NCBI RefSeq assembly: GCF_000376385.1
Contig: NZ_AQWN01000005.1
Location: 62,001 to 126,000 of the forward strand
Length of the DNA: 64,000 bases
DNA from: Desulfurispora thermophila DSM 16022
GTDB taxonomy: Bacteria; Bacillota; Desulfotomaculia; Desulfotomaculales; Desulfurisporaceae
Direction: 5' to 3'
This document shows, piece after piece, positions 19,088 through 62,100 of the stretch. The notes beneath the pieces were generated by a model. It did not search any database, was not told the origin of the DNA, and saw nothing but the letters and a program-made list of their open reading frames with translations. The stretch's first letter is position 1. Each line of letters begins with the position of its first letter. The position numbers and the translations under genes were made by a program.

Positions 19088-21103
19088 ATGTTCAAGATTA
19101 TTCGCAAGCGCGATGGGCGGGAAGTGCCCTTTGACGAAACCAAAATCACCGATGCCATCTTCAAAGCGGCGCGGGCCGTGGGCGGGGAAGACCGCCAGAC
19201 GGCCATGGAATTGACCATAGAAGTGCTCAAAATGCTCAAGAAAAAGTACAACGGCAATGTCTTCGGCGTGGAGGACGTGCAGGACGTGGTGGAAAAGGTG
19301 CTCATTGAAGCCGGGCACGCCCGCACCGCCAAAGCCTACATACTTTACCGGGACAAGCGCACCCGCATCCGCGATGCCAAGAGCGACCTGATGGATGCGG
19401 TGGAGGAAATCCTGGAGGAAACCAGCCGGGAAAACGCCAACATCAGCAATTCCCCCTCGGCCAAGATGCTGCAGATCGCCAGCGCGGCCAGCAAGAAATA
19501 TTACTTGAGCCGCCTGTTGCCCGAGGAAATGGCCGCCGCCCACCGCCGGGGCGACATCCATATTCACGACCTGGACTACTACGGCAAAACGCTCAACTGC
19601 CTGCAGATCCCGCTGGGCCGCCTGCTCACCGAGGGTTTCAACACCGGGCACGGCTACATCCGGCCGCCCCGCCGCCCCACCTCGGCCACGGCTCTGGCCG
19701 CCATAATATTACAGAGCTCCCAGAACGACATGTACGGTGGCCAGTCCTTTGCCGCCTTTGACCGGGATATGGCTCCCTTTGTGGAGCAGGCCGATGACTT
19801 TGAAACCTACCAGGCCATGGAAGCACTGGTATATAATCTCAATTCGATGCATAGTAGAGCGGGGGCTCAAGTGCCATTTTCTTCCATTAATCTGGGCACC
19901 GATACCAGCGAGGCGGGGCGGCGGGTGACCCGCAACCTGTTGCTGGCCTATGAGGCCGGCCTGGGGCGGGGCGAAAACCCCATTTTCCCCAACATTATCT
20001 TCCGGGTGAAGCAAGGGGTGAACTTCAACCCCGGCGACCCCAATTACGACCTGTTCCAGCTGGCCGTGCGGGTGGCGGCCAGGCGCCTCAACCCCACCTT
20101 CAGCTTTATGGATGCCAGCTTCAACCAGCCTTACGGTGACCTGGTCAGCTACATGGGTTGCCGCAGCCGGGTGATGGCCAACCGGCGGGGTCCCGAGGTC
20201 ACCGACGGGCGGGGCAACCTTTCCTTCACCACCATCAACCTGCCCCGCCTGGCCATCAGAGCCGAGCGCAGTTTAAAACGTTTTTACGCTTACCTGGATG
20301 AGGTGCTGCGCCTGACCATTGAGCAACTCTACCACCGCTTTACCGTGCAGGCCCGCCTCAAGGTCAAGGACATGCCCTTTGTCATGGGCCAGGGCCTTTA
20401 TCTGGGTTCCCAGGGCTTAAAGTCCTGCGACCCCATTGAGCCGGCCATAGTTAACGGTACCCTGGCCGTGGGTTTCATCGGCCTGGCCGAGACGCTCACC
20501 GCCCTGACCGGCTATCACCACGCCCAGAGTGAGGAGGCAAAAGAGCTGGGTCACCAAATTGTCTCCCACATGCGCCGGGCTGTGGATGAGGCCTGTGAGG
20601 AATTTGACCTCAACTACACACTGCTGGCCACGCCGGCCGAGGGTCTCTCCGGTCGTTTTGTTCGCATGGATCGTAAAGAGTATGGGATTATTCCCGGCGT
20701 GACCAATAAAGACTATTACACCAACTCCTTCCATGTGCCGGTGGGATATCCCATCAGCAGTTTTGAGAAAATAAGCATTGAAGGGTCTTTTCATAAATAC
20801 TGCAACGCCGGGCACATCAGCTATGTGGAAATGGCCGCGCCGCCCGTGCACAACCTGGCGGCCATGGAGAAGATCATCCGCCACATGGCGGCCTGCGATA
20901 TGGGTTACGCCGCCGTCAACTACCCGGTGGACTTTTGCACGGGTTGCGGTACCAGCGGCGTGATCAACGAGGACCGCTGTCCCGCCTGCGGCTGCCCGGA
21001 AATCCGCCGCGTGCGCCGCATCACCGGGTACCTCTCCACGGTGGATCGCTTCAACGACAGCAAAGTGGCCGAGCTTTACGACCGCACAGTGCACGAGTTT
21101 TAG
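19088..21103 (+). CDS. nrdD: Anaerobic (class III) ribonucleoside-triphosphate reductase NrdD
   Basis: Oxygen-sensitive glycyl-radical enzyme making dNTPs from NTPs. The 671-aa product starts with an ATP-cone (IIRKRDGREVPFDETKITDAI), then the NrdD barrel (DIHIHDLDYYGKTLNCLQIPL, YVEMAAPPVHNL), a C-terminal zinc site (CTGCGTSG ... CPACGCPEI) and the glycyl-radical motif RRITGYLST near residue 648. ATG 19088 has a GGAAAGGT site. Its activase nrdG lies 3 kb downstream, separated by an unrelated oxidoreductase pair. Confidence 0.96.
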   Translation: MFKIIRKRDGREVPFDETKITDAIFKAARAVGGEDRQTAMELTIEVLKMLKKKYNGNVFGVEDVQDVVEKVLIEAGHARTAKAYILYRDKRTRIRDAKSDLMDAVEEILEETSRENANISNSPSAKMLQIASAASKKYYLSRLLPEEMAAAHRRGDIHIHDLDYYGKTLNCLQIPLGRLLTEGFNTGHGYIRPPRRPTSATALAAIILQSSQNDMYGGQSFAAFDRDMAPFVEQADDFETYQAMEALVYNLNSMHSRAGAQVPFSSINLGTDTSEAGRRVTRNLLLAYEAGLGRGENPIFPNIIFRVKQGVNFNPGDPNYDLFQLAVRVAARRLNPTFSFMDASFNQPYGDLVSYMGCRSRVMANRRGPEVTDGRGNLSFTTINLPRLAIRAERSLKRFYAYLDEVLRLTIEQLYHRFTVQARLKVKDMPFVMGQGLYLGSQGLKSCDPIEPAIVNGTLAVGFIGLAETLTALTGYHHAQSEEAKELGHQIVSHMRRAVDEACEEFDLNYTLLATPAEGLSGRFVRMDRKEYGIIPGVTNKDYYTNSFHVPVGYPISSFEKISIEGSFHKYCNAGHISYVEMAAPPVHNLAAMEKIIRHMAACDMGYAAVNYPVDFCTGCGTSGVINEDRCPACGCPEIRRVRRITGYLSTVDRFNDSKVAELYDRTVHEF

Positions 21104-21123: not shown

Positions 21124-21333
21124 GCGGGTGTGCATCCATCGCTCGCCCGAACTCCGTACCGGGCAGCACCAGCGGCTCGGTCGCGGGCGGACCGGGCCGC
21201 CCCAGATTCGACATCCTGTCTCAACTGGGGTTGGCGCGGACGTCCTGTCCGCGCCTCCCGGTCCGCTACCGCGCCCTCGCCGGGTGCTGCAACCGGTACT
21301 CCGGACGGGCTCGCTCAGGAAGGACACACCCGC
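21124..21333 (-). repeat. Repeat family A, full-length 210-bp copy (inverted orientation)
   Basis: This copy fills the nrdD-ferredoxin gap. On the minus strand it reads from GGGTGTGTCCTTCCTGAGCG to a GCACACCC end, with the central hairpin GGCGCGGAC-AGGAC-GTCCGCGCC shared by all three full copies. Arms of about 35 bp near the two ends are imperfectly complementary. It is about 85-90% alike by eye to the copies at 34061 and 38726. Open frames across it are artefacts of its GC-rich sequence. Confidence 0.85.
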
Positions 21334-32778: not shown

Positions 32779-33222
32779 GTGGCGCGGGGTATAATGAGCA
32801 AAGTGATGGATTTTTTCGGATTTGAAGAAGAGAAGGGCGAAGTAACGGAAAATGTGGAACAAGAGGAATACCAGGAAGAACAACTGTTGCCGGCCCGGCG
32901 CAACAAGGGGCAGGTGGTCAGCCTGCATACGCAGCGACAGGTGCGGGTGGTGGTGGCCGAGCCACGCGTTTATGAAGACGTGCAGACCCTGGCCGACCAC
33001 TTGAAAAACCGCCGGCCGGTCATAGTCAACCTGGAAAAGGCCGATCCGGAAATGGGGCGGCGGGTGATTGACTTTTTGAGCGGGGCCATTTATGCTTTAA
33101 ACGGTAGCCTGCAAAAAGTGGGCAGCGGCATTTTCCTCTGTGTGCCCAGCAATATGGATATCACCAGCGAGATCCGGGACCAGGTTAAAGAAAAGACCGG
33201 TCTGCCCTGGCTGGGACGGTGA
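32779..33222 (+). CDS. sepF: Cell division protein SepF
   Basis: FtsZ-binding membrane anchor. The ~147-aa product has an N-terminal segment (SKVMDFFGFEEE) serving as membrane-binding helix, an acidic linker, and the C-terminal DUF552 domain: VRVVVAEPRVYEDVQTLADHL, RRPVIVNLEK, RRVIDFLSGAIYALNGSLQK and FLCVPSNMDI. GTG 32779 has a GGGGAGG site; ATG 32794 is an alternative. With ftsA missing near ftsZ, SepF is the visible candidate for tethering the Z-ring. Confidence 0.93.
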   Translation: MARGIMSKVMDFFGFEEEKGEVTENVEQEEYQEEQLLPARRNKGQVVSLHTQRQVRVVVAEPRVYEDVQTLADHLKNRRPVIVNLEKADPEMGRRVIDFLSGAIYALNGSLQKVGSGIFLCVPSNMDITSEIRDQVKEKTGLPWLGR

Positions 33223-34037
33223 GACATTTGACAGGAGAGTATAAGATAGGCTTTCTGGGCGGCGGGGCCATGGCCGGGGCCATGCTGGCCGGCCTGTTGC
33301 AAAACGGCTTTGCGCCGGAAAGGCTGTACGTCACCGATATAGATGAAAACCGCCGCCGCTGGCTGGCGGAGCAATTTGCCGTGCATGTGTTGCCCGACAA
33401 TGCTTCACTGGCCGCAGCAGTGGATATAATGATCGTAGCGTTAAAACCCCACCTGGTGGCCGGTGTGCTGGCCGGGGTGGCCGGCAGCCTGGGGGAAGGC
33501 GTTCTGGTCATCTCCATCGCGGCCGGTGTGGGCACGCAGCAGCTGGAGGAAGCCCTGGGGCGTCCGCTGCCCGTGGTACGGGCCATGCCCAACACAGCCG
33601 CCCTGGTGGGGGCCGCGGCCACAGCCGTCTGCGCCGGCCGGTACGCGCAAGAGCAACACATGGAAATGGCCCGGCAGGTGCTGGCGGCGGTGGGCCCGGT
33701 AGTGGAAGTGCCCGAGAACCTGATGCCGGCGGTGACCGCTTTGAGCGGCAGCGGCCCGGCTTATATGTTCCTGATTATCGAAGCGCTGGCCGATGCCGGC
33801 GTGGCCCAGGGTCTGCCCCGTCCGGCAGCCCTGCAACTGGCCGCCCAGACCATGCTGGGCGCGGCGCAGCTGGTGCTGAAGACCGGCCAGCACCCGGCGG
33901 CTTTGAAAGATCAGGTGACCACACCGGCCGGCACCACCATTGCCGCCCTGCAGGTGCTGGAAGAGGGTGCGCTGCGCGGCGTGCTGGGCCGGGCGGTGGC
34001 CGCGGCGGCCCGCCGCTGCCTCGATTTGGAAAAGTAA
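33219..34037 (+). CDS. proC: Pyrroline-5-carboxylate reductase ProC
   Basis: Last step of proline synthesis, NAD(P)H-dependent reduction of pyrroline-5-carboxylate. The 272-aa product has the Rossmann motif IGFLGGGAMAGAMLAGL, VALKPHLV, VVRAMPNTAALVGAA, and the C-terminal TALSGSGPAYMFLIIEALADAG and DQVTTPAGTTIAALQVLEEG. GTG 33219 overlaps the sepF stop (GTGA). proC also lies beside sepF in several other Gram-positive and cyanobacterial genomes. Confidence 0.95.
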   Translation: MRHLTGEYKIGFLGGGAMAGAMLAGLLQNGFAPERLYVTDIDENRRRWLAEQFAVHVLPDNASLAAAVDIMIVALKPHLVAGVLAGVAGSLGEGVLVISIAAGVGTQQLEEALGRPLPVVRAMPNTAALVGAAATAVCAGRYAQEQHMEMARQVLAAVGPVVEVPENLMPAVTALSGSGPAYMFLIIEALADAGVAQGLPRPAALQLAAQTMLGAAQLVLKTGQHPAALKDQVTTPAGTTIAALQVLEEGALRGVLGRAVAAAARRCLDLEK

Positions 34038-34060: not shown

Positions 34061-34269
34061 GGGGTGTGCTAATCCTGAGCGAGCCCGTCTGGAGTACCGG
34101 TTGCAGCACCCGGCGAGGGCGCGGTAGCGGGCCGGGAGGCGCGGACAGGACGTCCGCGCCAGCCTTGGCTTTCGACAGGAGGTCGAATCAGGGGCGGCCC
34201 GGCCCGCCCGCGACCGAGTTGCTGGTGCTGCCCGGTACGGAGTTCGGGCGAGCGAAGGATGCACACCCG
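34061..34269 (+). repeat. Repeat family A, full-length 209-bp copy
   Basis: This copy fills most of the proC-yggT gap. It runs from GGGGTGTGC to GCACACCCG, with left arm CCTGAGCGAGCCCG and right arm TTCGGGCGAGCGAAGG, and the same central GGCGCGGAC/GTCCGCGCC hairpin as the other full copies. A further local stem, TTCGAC with GTCGAA, is exact in this copy. No direct-repeat target duplication is seen in the flanks. Confidence 0.85.
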
Positions 34270-35916: not shown

Positions 35917-38703
35917 ATGGATTATAGCAAAACACTCAATCTGCCCCAGACCGACTTTCCCATGCGGGCCAATTTGCCCCAGCGGGAGCCCGAGATACTC
36001 AAATTCTGGGAAGAAATAAACATTTATGAACTGGTGCAGCGTAAAAACAGCGGCCGGCCCAAATTCATCCTGCACGACGGGCCTCCTTACGCCAACGGGC
36101 ACATCCACCTGGGGCACACTCTGAACAAAGTGCTCAAGGACATGGTGGTGAAATTCCACAGCATGAGCGGTTACAACGCCCCTTATGTACCGGGCTGGGA
36201 CACCCACGGTTTGCCCATTGAACAGCAGGCCATCAAAGCCCTGGGCATCAGCCGCCATAAAACCGATGTGCTGGAATTCCGCCGCAAGTGTAAAGAATAT
36301 GCCTTAAAATTTGTCGAAATCCAGAAGGAAGAGTTTAAACGCCTGGGAGTGCGGGGCGATTGGCAGCATCCCTACCTCACCCTGATGCCCCATTTTGAAG
36401 CCGCCCAGATCGGTGTTTTCGGCGAGATGGCCCGGCGGGGCTACATTTACAAGGGCTTAAAGCCGGTTTACTGGTGCGCCGGCTGTGAGACCGCCCTGGC
36501 CGAGGCCGAGGTGGAATATAACGACAAAAAATCGCCCTCCATATATGTGGCCTTTGCCGTGCAGGACGGCCGGGGCCTTGTGCCCGAGCAGGATACTTAT
36601 TTTGTCATCTGGACCACCACCCCCTGGACACTGCTGGCCAACCTGGCCATCTGCCTGCACCCGGAACTTACTTATGTGTTGCTGGACGCCGGCACGAAAA
36701 AATATGTGGTGGCCAGAGAACTGGCGGGCAGTTTCCAGACCGCTGTGGGTCTGGAAAACGCTGTGCAGGTGCGCGAATTTAAAGGCAGCGAACTGGAGCA
36801 CATTGTCTGCCGCCATCCCTTTATTGACCGCACCTCGCCTGTAATTCTGGGCGATCATGTTACACTGGAGGCCGGTACCGGTTGTGTGCACACCGCGCCC
36901 GGGCACGGGCACGAAGACTTTCTGGTAGGTCAGAAATACGGCCTGCCCGTGCTGTCGCCCGTGGACGGCCGGGGCCGCTTTACGGCCGAGGCGGGTCAGT
37001 TTGCCGGCCAACTTTACCACGAGTCCAATGCCGGTATTATCGAAACACTGCGTCAGCGGGATGCGCTATTGGCCGCGGGTCAGATCACGCACAGCTATCC
37101 CCACTGCTGGCGTTGCAAACAGCCCGTCTTTTTCCGGGCCACCGAGCAATGGTTCGCTTCGGTGGAGGGGTTCCGCCAGGCCGCCCTGCAGGCCATTGAC
37201 CGGGTGAAATGGATCCCGGCCTGGGGCCGCGACCGCATTTACAACATGATGGCCGGGCGGGGTGACTGGTGTGTCTCCCGCCAGCGCACCTGGGGCGTGC
37301 CCATCCCCATCTTTTACTGCACCGCCTGCGGCAAACCGGTCATTACCGGGCAAACCATCAGCCATTTGCAAAACCTGTTTAAGCAGCACGGCTCCGACAT
37401 CTGGTTTGCTGCACCGGTGGAAGAGCTCATCCCGCCCGGTCTTACCTGCCCGGACTGCGGGGCGAGCGCCTTCAGCAAGGAGACCGACATCATGGACGTT
37501 TGGTTTGACAGCGGCTCCAGCCACCTGGGCGTCCTGCAGCAGCCCGAAATCTGGCCCGAACTGGCCTGGCCGGCCGATCTCTACCTGGAAGGCAGCGACC
37601 AGCACCGCGGCTGGTTCAACAGCTCACTTTCCACCGCGGTGGCCGTTACCGGCCAGGCACCCTACCGGGCCGTGCTGACCCACGGCTTTGTGGTGGACGA
37701 GCAGGGCCGCAAGATGAGCAAATCGCTGGGTAATGTGGTGGACCCGCTGCAAGTGATCCAGCAAATGGGCGCCGATGTGCTGCGCCTGTGGGTGAGCTCG
37801 GCCGACTACCGGGGCGACCTGGCAGTTTCGCCCAATATCTTAAAGCAAATTGCCGAAGCCTACCGCAAGATCCGCAACACCTGCCGCTTCTTGCTGGGCA
37901 ACCTTTACGACTTCACCCCGGGCCGGGACGATGTCCCCTATGAGCAAATGCTGGAAATTGACCGCTGGGCGCTTTTAAAGACCCACCGGTTGATAGAAAA
38001 AGTGCTGCAGGCCTATCGCGATTACGAGTTTCACGTGGTCTACCACGCTGTGCACCACTTCTGCACAGTGGATATGAGCGCCCTTTATCTGGATATAATT
38101 AAAGATCGCCTGTACACCACCCGGCCGGACGGTCCGGCCCGGCGCAGCGCCCAGACCGTGCTCTACCACATTCTGGATGTGCTGGTGCGCCTGCTCACTC
38201 CGGTGCTGGCCTTCACCAGCGAGGAAATCTGGCGTTATTTGCCCAAAAAAGAGGGGCAGCCCGTCAGTGTACAGTTGCTGGACATGCCCCTGGTGAACGA
38301 AGCCTATCTGGATCCCGAACTGGAAGAAAAATGGGAGAAACTGCTGGCTGTGCGCGCCGTGGTCACCCGGGCGCTGGAAAAGGCCCGCCAGGAGAAGCTG
38401 ATTGGCAATTCCCTGGAGGCGGCCGTGCGCCTGTACGCAGACGGTGAACTGCTGGCTTTCCTGCAGCCGCTGCAGGAGGATCTGCCCACGGTGTTTATTG
38501 TTTCCCAGGTGGAACTGGTGGCCGGTCCCGCGCCCGCTGCCGCTTTCACCGCCGAGGAGCAGCCCGGCTTGGCCGTGCTGGTGGAGCGGGCGGCCGGCGA
38601 AAAGTGCCAGCGCTGCTGGATGTACCACCCGGCGTTGGGTCGGGACGCGGCGCATCCCGCGCTGTGCCCGCGCTGCGCCGCGGTGGTTAATGCTAATAGT
38701 TAA
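35917..38703 (+). CDS. ileS: Isoleucyl-tRNA synthetase
   Basis: Class I synthetase charging tRNA-Ile, 928 aa. The HIGH region is HDGPPYANGHIHLGHTLNK, followed by the CP1 editing domain (TTTPWTLLANLAI, GTGCVHTAPGHGHEDF), DVWFDSGSSH, the KMSKS motif GRKMSKSLGN, the anticodon-binding domain and a C-terminal zinc finger (CQRCWMYH ... CPRCAAVV). Features fit the bacterial-type IleS. ATG 35917 has a GGAAGGAG site. Confidence 0.98.
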   Translation: MDYSKTLNLPQTDFPMRANLPQREPEILKFWEEINIYELVQRKNSGRPKFILHDGPPYANGHIHLGHTLNKVLKDMVVKFHSMSGYNAPYVPGWDTHGLPIEQQAIKALGISRHKTDVLEFRRKCKEYALKFVEIQKEEFKRLGVRGDWQHPYLTLMPHFEAAQIGVFGEMARRGYIYKGLKPVYWCAGCETALAEAEVEYNDKKSPSIYVAFAVQDGRGLVPEQDTYFVIWTTTPWTLLANLAICLHPELTYVLLDAGTKKYVVARELAGSFQTAVGLENAVQVREFKGSELEHIVCRHPFIDRTSPVILGDHVTLEAGTGCVHTAPGHGHEDFLVGQKYGLPVLSPVDGRGRFTAEAGQFAGQLYHESNAGIIETLRQRDALLAAGQITHSYPHCWRCKQPVFFRATEQWFASVEGFRQAALQAIDRVKWIPAWGRDRIYNMMAGRGDWCVSRQRTWGVPIPIFYCTACGKPVITGQTISHLQNLFKQHGSDIWFAAPVEELIPPGLTCPDCGASAFSKETDIMDVWFDSGSSHLGVLQQPEIWPELAWPADLYLEGSDQHRGWFNSSLSTAVAVTGQAPYRAVLTHGFVVDEQGRKMSKSLGNVVDPLQVIQQMGADVLRLWVSSADYRGDLAVSPNILKQIAEAYRKIRNTCRFLLGNLYDFTPGRDDVPYEQMLEIDRWALLKTHRLIEKVLQAYRDYEFHVVYHAVHHFCTVDMSALYLDIIKDRLYTTRPDGPARRSAQTVLYHILDVLVRLLTPVLAFTSEEIWRYLPKKEGQPVSVQLLDMPLVNEAYLDPELEEKWEKLLAVRAVVTRALEKARQEKLIGNSLEAAVRLYADGELLAFLQPLQEDLPTVFIVSQVELVAGPAPAAAFTAEEQPGLAVLVERAAGEKCQRCWMYHPALGRDAAHPALCPRCAAVVNANS

Positions 38704-38725: not shown

Positions 38726-38935
38726 GCGGGTGTGCTTTTCCTGAGCGAGTCCGTCCGGAGTGCCGGCTCAAGCATCCAGCGAGGGCGTGGCAACGGGCCG
38801 GGAGGCGCGGACAGGACGTCCGCGCCAGCCCCAGTTGAGATAGGATGTCGAATCTGGGGCGGCCCGGCCCGTCCACGTCCGAGCTGTTGATGCTGCCCGG
38901 CACGGAGTTCGGACGAGCGAAGGAAACACACCCGC
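38726..38935 (+). repeat. Repeat family A, full-length 210-bp copy
   Basis: This copy lies just after ileS, bounded by GCGGGTGTGC and CACACCCGC, with the shared central hairpin and a CCCCAG/CTGGGG side stem. A further degenerate end fragment in the opposite sense (GACGGGCTC then GGAAGGCGCACC) follows at about 38946-38974, suggesting repeated insertion or rearrangement here. Confidence 0.85.
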
Positions 38936-42290: not shown

Positions 42291-42364
42291 TACTACAGCG
42301 TAAACTAGCGGGTGTGCGAAGCATGCACACCCGCTGCTGACAAATTTAAATTGCGCTGTAGTAC
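42290..42364. repeat. 75-bp nested palindrome containing the family A ends
   Basis: Outer inverted repeats GTACTACAGCG (42290-42300) and CGCTGTAGTAC (42354-42364) enclose a perfect 10-bp hairpin GCGGGTGTGC-GAAGCAT-GCACACCCGC (42308-42334). The inner hairpin equals the two outer tips of repeat family A joined together. It lies between larE and the next gene. Confidence 0.7.
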
Positions 42365-45425: not shown

Positions 45426-45675
45426 TAAATTAGCCAAAGGCTAAGAACGGGAGTATTAAGCACACACCCTGGCCCGCAGAGAGTTGCCGGCCGGTGCAAG
45501 GCAACGGCAGGGGGTGCCCAACTCGCCCGGGAGCCGGCCGGCGGAAAAGCAGTACGCCGGCCCGGAGGAGCGCCGTTACAGCTCTGTGAGCGGGTCGCGT
45601 TTTGCTGCGCGGCCAAGCGGGGTGGTACCGCGGGAGCACCAGGCTCTCGTCCCTACAGGGGACGAGAGCTTTTTT
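45426..45675 (+). promoter_or_regulatory. T-box riboswitch leader, probable leucine specificity
   Basis: The conserved T-box GGGGTGGTACCGCG lies at 45619-45632, followed by the terminator GCTCTCGTCCC/GGGACGAGAGC and six T residues (45643-45675). Upstream is a Stem I-like structure starting with AGAGAGTTGCC. In its 3' half CCAACTCGCC offers CTC (45522-45524) followed by a purine, the usual Leu specifier. The TGGT of the T-box fits a tRNA with discriminator A, as tRNA-Leu has. Uncharged tRNA would favour read-through. The next gene is an acyl-CoA ligase; leuS comes 2.4 kb later. Confidence 0.9.
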
Positions 45676-59168: not shown

Positions 59169-62100
59169 GCCGAGATAGTAGTAATAATGAAAGCAAAAAA
59201 CTGATTGTAGTACTAGGAATGCACCGGAGTGGTACTAGCGCAATTACGCGAGGGCTACAGGTTCTTGGTGTTGATCTGGGTAATAACTTGATGCCGCCAA
59301 TGGAAGGCGTAAACGATAAAGGTTTTTTTGAGGATCTCGACCTCAACGCACTCAATATTGAGATGTTACAAGCAATAGGGAGTGATTGGCATTATCTTTC
59401 TCCGGTTGATGCTAATGATGTTGAGGCGTTACATAAAAAAGGATTCTATTTCCGTGCTGTTGAGTTGCTTCGTCAGAAAGTTGGTAATACTTCAACCTTT
59501 GGTTTTAAAGATCCACGTGTAGCAAAATTACTTCCTTTTTGGGTACAGGTATTTGCTCATTGTCAGTTTGACGTGGGATATGTTTTGGCACTGCGCCATC
59601 CTCTCAGCGTAGTTAAATCTCTGGCGAAACGTGATGGATTCGATCCTGAAAAGAGCTACCTGCTTTGGTTGGAGCATGTCCTAACAAGTATTTCAAATAC
59701 TTCGGGACAAAAGCGCGTTCTTGTTGATTACGATCGCTTAATGCATTCGCCTGAGCGAGAGTTAGAGCGAATTGCTAGTTGCTTTGATTTGCAAATTAAC
59801 AAAATTGAGTTGCATAGATATAAATCAGATTTTCTTGACAATAAGTTGCGGCATACAGTTTATGATTTAAATGGTCTAATTCTGGATGATGCCTGTCCCC
59901 CTATTGTGCGCGAAATCTATACTGTTCTTCTAGATATTGCTACAGATAGGAGAGGTTTGGGCGATCCTGAATTGCAATCTGATGTAGCTGTTTGGATTAA
60001 CGAGTATCAGCGTATGAAATCAAATTTACGTTTAGTTGATAGACTTTCGGGACAGATAGCCAGCCTCAGCCAGGTGGTGGCCGAAGTGGATGAAAAGATA
60101 GCCAGCCTTAACCAGGCGGTAGCCGAGCGGGATGGACAGATAGCCAGCCTCAACCAGGCAGTGGCCGAGCGAGACGAGCAGATAGCTAGCCTCAATAAGG
60201 CTGTTGTCGAGCGTGACAAACAGATAGCTGAACTAATTCAAGCTGTTGCTGGGTGTGAAGAGCAATTACCTAAGCTTAATCAGTTGGTTACCGAGAGTGA
60301 TGCACATATAGGTATTCTCAAAAAAGCTTTGGCTGAACACAATGTGCAAATTGAAAATCTTAAGCGAATTGTCGCTGAACGGGAGAAGGAGTTAAAAAAA
60401 ATATTTCAATCACGTTCTTGGAAGCTGACGCGCCCCTTAAGGTTTTTTGGTAGGGTTATGCGTGGCGAATGGGCAACAATTATTACTAGTTTGCGGCAAC
60501 GTATTCAATATTGGGGGCGTATACTTTATCGCCAAGCCCCGTTACCGAGTAGTTGGAAGTCTCGTATCGTCAATTTGGCCTATCGGTTTTGCGGTCCTCT
60601 GTTTAAGGGATTGATACACTACGAAATGTGGAAACGTAACCGTGAGGGCTTGAACATTGTACCTCATGGTAACGGTCAAGTATTAGCTAATGATACCGAA
60701 GCTGTTTTGCGCTCGCTCCGATTTGAATATGTGTCTGATCCGGTAGTCTCGATCATCATTCCTACCTATGGAAATATAGGTTATACGCTTTCTTGCATAC
60801 GTTCCATAGCAAATAATCTACCATTGGTACCGATAGAAATAATAGTCATTGAAGATGCTTCCGGTGATACCGAAATTCTGCGACTCAATGAAATACCCGG
60901 ATTGCGTTTCTTGCAAAATGATGTTAACCTTGGCTTTATTCGTTCATGCAATCTTGCAGCGAGCAAAGCGCGTGGCAAGTACCTATATTTCTTAAACAAT
61001 GACACAGAAGTCACTGATGGATGGCTTGATTCGATGCTCGATGTTTTCGAAAGGTTTGCTGACTGCGGCATGGTTGGCTCAAAGCTTATTTACCCGGATG
61101 GCCGTTTGCAGGAAGCCGGTGGTATTGTTTGGCGTGATGCAAGTGCATGGAATTACGGTCGATTTGACGATCCAGGTAAAAGCGTTTATAACTATCTTCG
61201 TGAAGTTGATTACTGTTCAGGGGCATCGTTGCTTATCAGCGCTGAATTATTCAAACGCCTCGGCGGTTTTGATGATCACTATGCACCTGCATATTGCGAA
61301 GATACCGACCTTGCATTCAAGGTGAGAGAAGCCGGTTACCGCGTATTCTATCAGCCGCGTTCTGTTGTGATCCATTATGAAGGTGTGTCAAACGGGACGG
61401 ATATTACCCAGGGGGTTAAATCATACCAGGTTACTAATCAACAGAAATTTTTTAATTGCTGGAAGAGAGTGCTCGATGCGGATCATTTTGAAAACGGAAA
61501 AAATGTTTTTTGGGCTCGTGACCGATCGGGTAAGAGACCATGCGTAGTAGTTATAGACCACTATATACCGCAGCCGGATAAAGATGCTGGTTCAAAAACA
61601 ATGATGCAAATTATGTCATTGTTTGTAGATAGCAGAATGAATGTTAAGTTCTGGCCACATAACTTGTGGTACGATCCCGAATATGCTCCAAAACTGCAAC
61701 AAATGGGAATCGAGGTTTTCTACGGCCCAGAATATAGCGGTGGTTTTGAAAAATGGGTTCAGGAAAACGGCAAGTACGTGGATTATTTCTTTCTCAGCCG
61801 GCCAGATGTTGCAATAGAGTACATTGACCATATAAGACGTTATTCAAAGGCAAAGATTATTTATTATGGGCATGATATTCATCACTTACGTGTTCGCGAG
61901 CAGCGTAGGTTAGAGCCTAATAATGCATTTCTTGCTGTTGAAGAGAAAAGGTTAGAAAAACTGGAACGCAAAATTTGGCTTATGGTGGATGTGATATATT
62001 ATCCTTCTGATGTAGAGACAGCTTATGTAAATGAATGGTTGAAGGAAATGGGTTCTAATTCATTAGCTCATACCATGCCAGGATATGGTTTTGACTCTTT

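Follow-up and report, generated by a model that had tools for sequence, protein, structure and literature searches.

We find that family A, a group of palindromic intergenic repeats, most probably (we put the probability at about 0.7) consists of MITE-type non-autonomous transposons that carry a TwoAYGGAY RNA as cargo; when transcribed, this RNA would be suited to CsrA binding and could serve to titrate the protein or to mark mRNA 3′ ends. An earlier note on the same DNA had offered a MITE-like element and a mobile structured RNA as alternatives, and the evidence backs both together. The window, by which we mean the whole 64,000-nucleotide stretch analyzed, corresponds to C5:62001–126000 of a genome assembly of 2.82 Mb in 19 contigs (G000).

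Three copies lie in the window, as the earlier note described: A1 (34061–34269, + strand), A2 (38726–38935, +), and A3 (21124–21333, −). Their pairwise identity is 85%–94% (86%–87% and 93%–94% over matched blocks), and they follow proC (33219–34037), ileS (35917–38703), and nrdD (19088–21103), respectively, placements confirmed by matches to TIGR00112, TIGR00392, and TIGR02487. A1 occupies the gap between proC and the next gene in the sense orientation of proC, A2 is likewise in sense orientation, and A3 is inverted and antisense to the transcription of nrdD. The shared ends and the central hairpin, GGCGCGGAC-AGGAC-GTCCGCGCC, are evident in the sequences of the copies; in A1 this hairpin 1 spans 34138–34160 (+), with its AGGAC loop at 34147–34151. 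It is invariant, as had been claimed, but it is not the sole conserved part, for it is followed by another hairpin, whose loop is AGGA (in A1, 34162–34195, +, with a weak inner stem and an AGGAG loop at 34177–34181). The length of about 210 bp similarly holds for the copies but not for the full extent of the element, since many copies in the genome bear outer inverted repeats, TACTACAGCGTAA/TTACGCTGTAGTA. To the three full copies we add a fourth relative, an internally deleted derivative of 73 bp (42291–42363, +) that begins immediately behind the larE stop codon (CTAG) and has both outer repeats, the left being TACTACAGCGTAA (42291–42303, +) and the right reading TTGCGCTGTAGTA on the + strand (42351–42363, −). 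Elsewhere in the window we observed a T-box leader (45434–45657; RF00230, 103 bits) and a 42-bp tandem repeat (GATAGCCAGCCT...; 60050–60259) that looks in frame and perhaps belongs to a coiled-coil gene.

A GTGA beside the element had raised the suspicion of a HEARO/IscB-associated RNA; this identity was rejected, as RF02033 is absent from the Rfam matches. A blind Rfam scan matched A3 (44.2 bits at 21149–21306) and A2 (43.5 bits at 38801–38865) to RF01731, TwoAYGGAY, above the gathering score of 43 bits, and A1 at 37.1 bits, below it. The element is thus not, as the earlier note had supposed, without a described family. A covariance model (R1) built from 27 genome copies, whose conserved RNA core lies at 34103–34231 (+) in A1 and scores 128 bits there, found relatives in 19 of 80 genomes of the order, the source genome included, and these reach up to 67 bits against RF01731. 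Carriers of the related RNA include Pelotomaculum propionicicum, Desulfotruncus alcoholivorax, Desulfoscipio geothermicus, and Desulforamulus putei, which suggests an origin of the window in the Desulfotomaculum–Pelotomaculum group. A degenerate pattern for hairpin 2 led to gut Lachnospiraceae loci exceeding 100 bits to RF01731. The exact core pattern had no match in the genome contig collection, an absence that lineage specificity of the core probably explains.

The predicted fold is a single long stem capped by two hairpins whose GGA motifs are separated by 27 nt, and both hairpins stand on a common outer stem for which there is covariation. Among copies within the genome, 14 of 48 pairs have changes on both sides, compared with 2.6 in shuffles and 0–2 when the pairing is slid. 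Across 17 genomes, the figures are 40 of 48 pairs and 356 cells against 30 pairs and 106 cells in shuffles, in an alignment that was fitted to the covariance model and therefore leans toward covariation. Hairpin 1 has AGGA in all 27 genome copies, and in 2/27 the loop of hairpin 2 is ACGA; in the cross-genome alignment, hairpin 2 has AGGA throughout except for one AGGG, and hairpin 1 has it except in G015 and G045 (GTGAT). In most other copies hairpin 2 contains tandem G·A pairs, as opposed to the weak inner stem of A1, and such pairs have been reported for TwoAYGGAY too (PMC4333381). The loops of family A are AGGAN, one nucleotide shorter than the six-nucleotide AYGGAY terminal loops, and for this reason we class its core as a divergent RF01731 variant, carried by MITEs, rather than as a standard member.

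Repair between the arms of a DNA palindrome could mimic covariation in a stem. The hairpin might accordingly act as DNA, a REP/BIME-like palindrome engaged in transposition or replication with no role as RNA, and its covariation would then reflect hairpin-templated repair; the great length of the palindrome and its many internally deleted derivatives, as palindrome instability predicts, are in keeping with this. Repair does not, however, explain the conserved unpaired loops, and the movement of RNA-free MITEs with the same ends indicates that the palindrome is not needed. Also against this account, one core occurs in two unrelated carriers, and gut Lachnospiraceae loci match RF01731 at over 100 bits. 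We judge this account distinctly unlikely and return to a MITE with an RNA cargo.

Family A is repeated in the genome far beyond chance: blastn places it at 43 sites, with 27 complete or almost complete copies and many fragments (best E values 1e-50 to 1e-106). The RNA core is 85%–97% alike among genome copies, and the 27 copies group into a single clade, with 90% identity inside it and at most 70% to any other genome, showing that the family was amplified in this lineage. The same genome holds a second TwoAYGGAY subfamily (L234–L237) at C5:203491–203618 (−), C2:261368–261495 (+), C8:74916–75044 (−), and C7:148954–149081 (+); in three of these four copies, hairpin 1 carries the canonical six-nucleotide loop. 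At C8:74916 the copy is chimeric, a second-subfamily core being enclosed by family A arms and TACTACAGCGTAA ends.

The outer inverted repeats, which lie beyond the ends described earlier, identify a carrier of IS701 type. They occur at 32 sites, compared with 3 for a reversed-pattern control; eight elements of the genome, 61–404 bp long and in several cases internally deleted, have both outer ends, the 73-bp derivative at 42291–42363 being one of them. IS701-type terminal inverted repeats are thereby present at the level of the family, although only 13/54 ends of full copies score 9/13 or better (control, 1/54). They are not detectable on the three window copies, whose assignment to this type is by family-level ends and not their own. 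Ends of the TACTACAGCGTAA/TTACGCTGTAGTA type are found in 12 of 80 genomes of the order, and one relative (L213 in G035) has a 1226-bp IS with TACTACAGCGTAA ends; the transposase of this IS is broken and gives two separate matches to IS701 (134 and 85 bits). Exact 4-bp YTAR duplications accompany five RNA-free MITEs of relatives (L206, L223, L230, L232, and L233); in this genome the duplication is exact in one of the eight elements, and most others retain 2–3 of 4 bases. In a further relative (G054), at L231:1722–2210 (−), a partial DruA-like protein (PF14236, 72 bits) replaces the IS701 transposase behind a TACTACAGCGTAA left end.

G000 has no IS701 transposase, and its elements are orphans. 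Searches with DDE_Tnp_1 and IS701 for an autonomous partner in this genome gave none with matching ends, and IS1182 was rejected as the carrier here, its two truncated copies in G000 having different ends. Two IS1182-family copies (L183 and L184) break the assembly at contig starts (C3:43–699 and C6:43–699), and each adjoins the same hairpin, GCCACTCCTACACGGAGTGGC. We propose that the elements in this genome were mobilized through IS701-type carrier ends (TACTACAGCGTAA, with a 4-bp YTAR target) and that the transposase has since been lost; the copies would be old, those in the window having probably kept the RNA core while their outer ends eroded. That neither a transposase nor a clear target duplication could be seen, as the earlier note stated, holds for the three window copies and, with regard to IS701, for the genome, but not for relatives, where transposases of the IS701 and IS1182 families occur with matching ends, and where both 4-bp YTAR duplications and duplicated terminator hairpins are seen.

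The carrier of IS1182 type belongs to these relatives. In G010, with 42 copies by R1, and in G007, elements start with TCAGACTGNAGACAAA and end with TTTGTCNACANNCTGA; G010 has 78 such end sites, compared with 0–1 in the control, and RF01731 matches above the gathering score occur in relatives' elements as well. A 1604-bp IS in G061 (L163–L166) has the same ends and a transposase of the IS1182 family (456 bits); at the ends of two contigs there, this IS lies between duplicated hairpins. The flanks of the elements are direct repeats of a host terminator hairpin, with 17 of 20 G010 copies scoring above 11, the highest value among 380 mismatched control pairs. These repeats fold at −11.8 kcal/mol versus −3.3 when shuffled, and the T-tract is kept on the downstream hairpin copy (4.1 T in 8, against 2.15 upstream; p = 0.0007). 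IS1182-family ends together with a duplicated target hairpin were found in both G010 and G007; in G078, no target duplications were seen. Short RNA-free MITEs with IS1182-type ends also lie beside terminators in G007 (L171 and L172) and G010 (L175). Since RNA-free MITEs share the carrier ends, we regard the RNA as cargo.

Mobility, as against conservation at orthologous sites, could be assessed in the G010 lineage, where three sampled G010 sites are empty in six or seven congeners that have the same gene order. The Rfam type of RF01731 is cis-regulatory and the window copies have no visible outer repeats, as might be expected of an ordinary, vertically kept cis-regulatory RNA that was duplicated by chance and is not mobile. 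The empty sites contradict this for the G010 lineage, and the target duplications in relatives, the 27 dispersed monophyletic copies, and the differing neighboring genes of the three window copies also count against it; we give such an origin very little credence. For the transposons of relatives, we suggest instead that IS1182-type MITEs target the 3′ base of intrinsic terminator hairpins for insertion and duplicate the hairpin, an event that would leave the U-tract on the downstream copy only; transcription of the upstream gene would then run on into the element and end beyond it.

Family copies sit just behind stop codons, in short gaps. Their bias toward the sense orientation relative to genes is not significant (pooled 29:18), so that a third or more may lie antisense, which weakens a 3′-UTR reading. 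Position, the rebuilding of a terminator behind IS1182-type copies, and the very stable fold (−128 to −151 kcal/mol) would nonetheless suit a mobile structured RNA that acts at transcript 3′ ends as a terminator replacement, stabilizer, or insulator independently of CsrA, its loops serving another protein or the structure. A stem alone would do for such tasks, however, which leaves the near-invariant AGGA in both loops and the tandem G·A pairs unexplained, together with the co-occurrence of the RNA with csrA. We hold this alternative to be unlikely and favor a transposon-borne RNA with CsrA as its partner.

That the loops hardly vary while the stems have diverged speaks for a bound partner, for which CsrA is the best candidate. 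TwoAYGGAY has been predicted to be a CsrA-binding sRNA (PMC4333381), and CsrA prefers GGA in loops and weak stems, with the consensus RUACARGGAUGU (PMC7652899). In family A, GGA is exposed in hairpin loops with flanking AC/GU (CAGGAYG and CAGGAKG), as in CsrA-binding RNAs. Judged by motif and predicted stem, hairpin 2 fits the preference of CsrA better than hairpin 1, which is very stable, a property that SELEX data suggest to be unfavorable for CsrA (PMC7652899). The genome has csrA, with fliW upstream of it. We surveyed 398 genomes of the phylum, of which 49 have RF01731: csrA is present in 47/49 of these and in 244/349 others (p = 2.3e-5; by genus, p = 3.6e-4), counts that take no account of deeper relatedness and involve a gene that also tracks motility, so that the co-occurrence supports the link and does not prove it. 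Two RNA-rich genomes, G063 and G240, have no detectable csrA.

If transcribed, the RNA would present a long stem and two GGA-exposing hairpins, probably bridged by one CsrA dimer, and many copies could together titrate the protein or flag mRNA 3′ ends for it. We advance more tentatively the possibility of a mobile CsrA sponge, in which two unrelated families of selfish MITEs independently carry a putative CsrA-binding RNA that is co-transcribed as the 3′ end of an mRNA. Were this so, transposition would rewire or titrate a global regulator, and Firmicutes would have a first RNA antagonist of CsrA; the antagonist known there is a protein, FliW, rather than an sRNA (PMC4682653). Any benefit from the RNA could go to the host or to the transposon, or there may be none. 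TwoAYGGAY has been without a function since 2010, and its transposon setting, GGA loops, and linkage to csrA suggest both a partner that can be tested and a route by which the RNA spreads. If our main reading is right, two transposon families disperse a structured regulatory RNA as their cargo, one of them by insertion at terminators that leaves genes unbroken, and the control of CsrA in Firmicutes gains an RNA layer.

Family A shares with TwoAYGGAY (RF01731; Weinberg et al. 2010, PMC2864571) the two-hairpin core, long outer stem, and GGA in both loops, and differs in its five-nucleotide AGGAN loops, high copy number in MITEs, and transposon inverted repeats at the ends; in the part of the literature naming TwoAYGGAY that we consulted, we found no report of its mobility. 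IS701-family MITEs have the same type of inverted repeats, and 4-bp YTAR duplications that are exact in MITEs of relatives but mostly inexact in this genome; family A differs in carrying a structured RNA as cargo. IS1272/TnSha1, of the IS1182 family, likewise has a transposase aimed at terminator hairpins, but it reportedly removes a portion of the hairpin and generates no duplication (PMC4923244), whereas the elements in G010, G007, and G061 duplicate the whole hairpin (about 17–29 bp). REP/BIME elements are similarly palindromic, intergenic, and high in copy number; family A differs in its size of about 210–260 bp, its transposon ends, and its conserved two-hairpin RNA core. Loops in RsmE structures are six-nucleotide ANGGAN, unlike the five-nucleotide loops here, a difference that counts against our reading. 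The CsrA-sequestering sRNAs of the CsrB/RsmY type also present repeated GGA-loop hairpins, but these are one-locus sRNAs of Gammaproteobacteria, with many sites in CsrB, whereas family A has two sites per molecule, dispersed over many loci of a FliW-bearing Firmicute.
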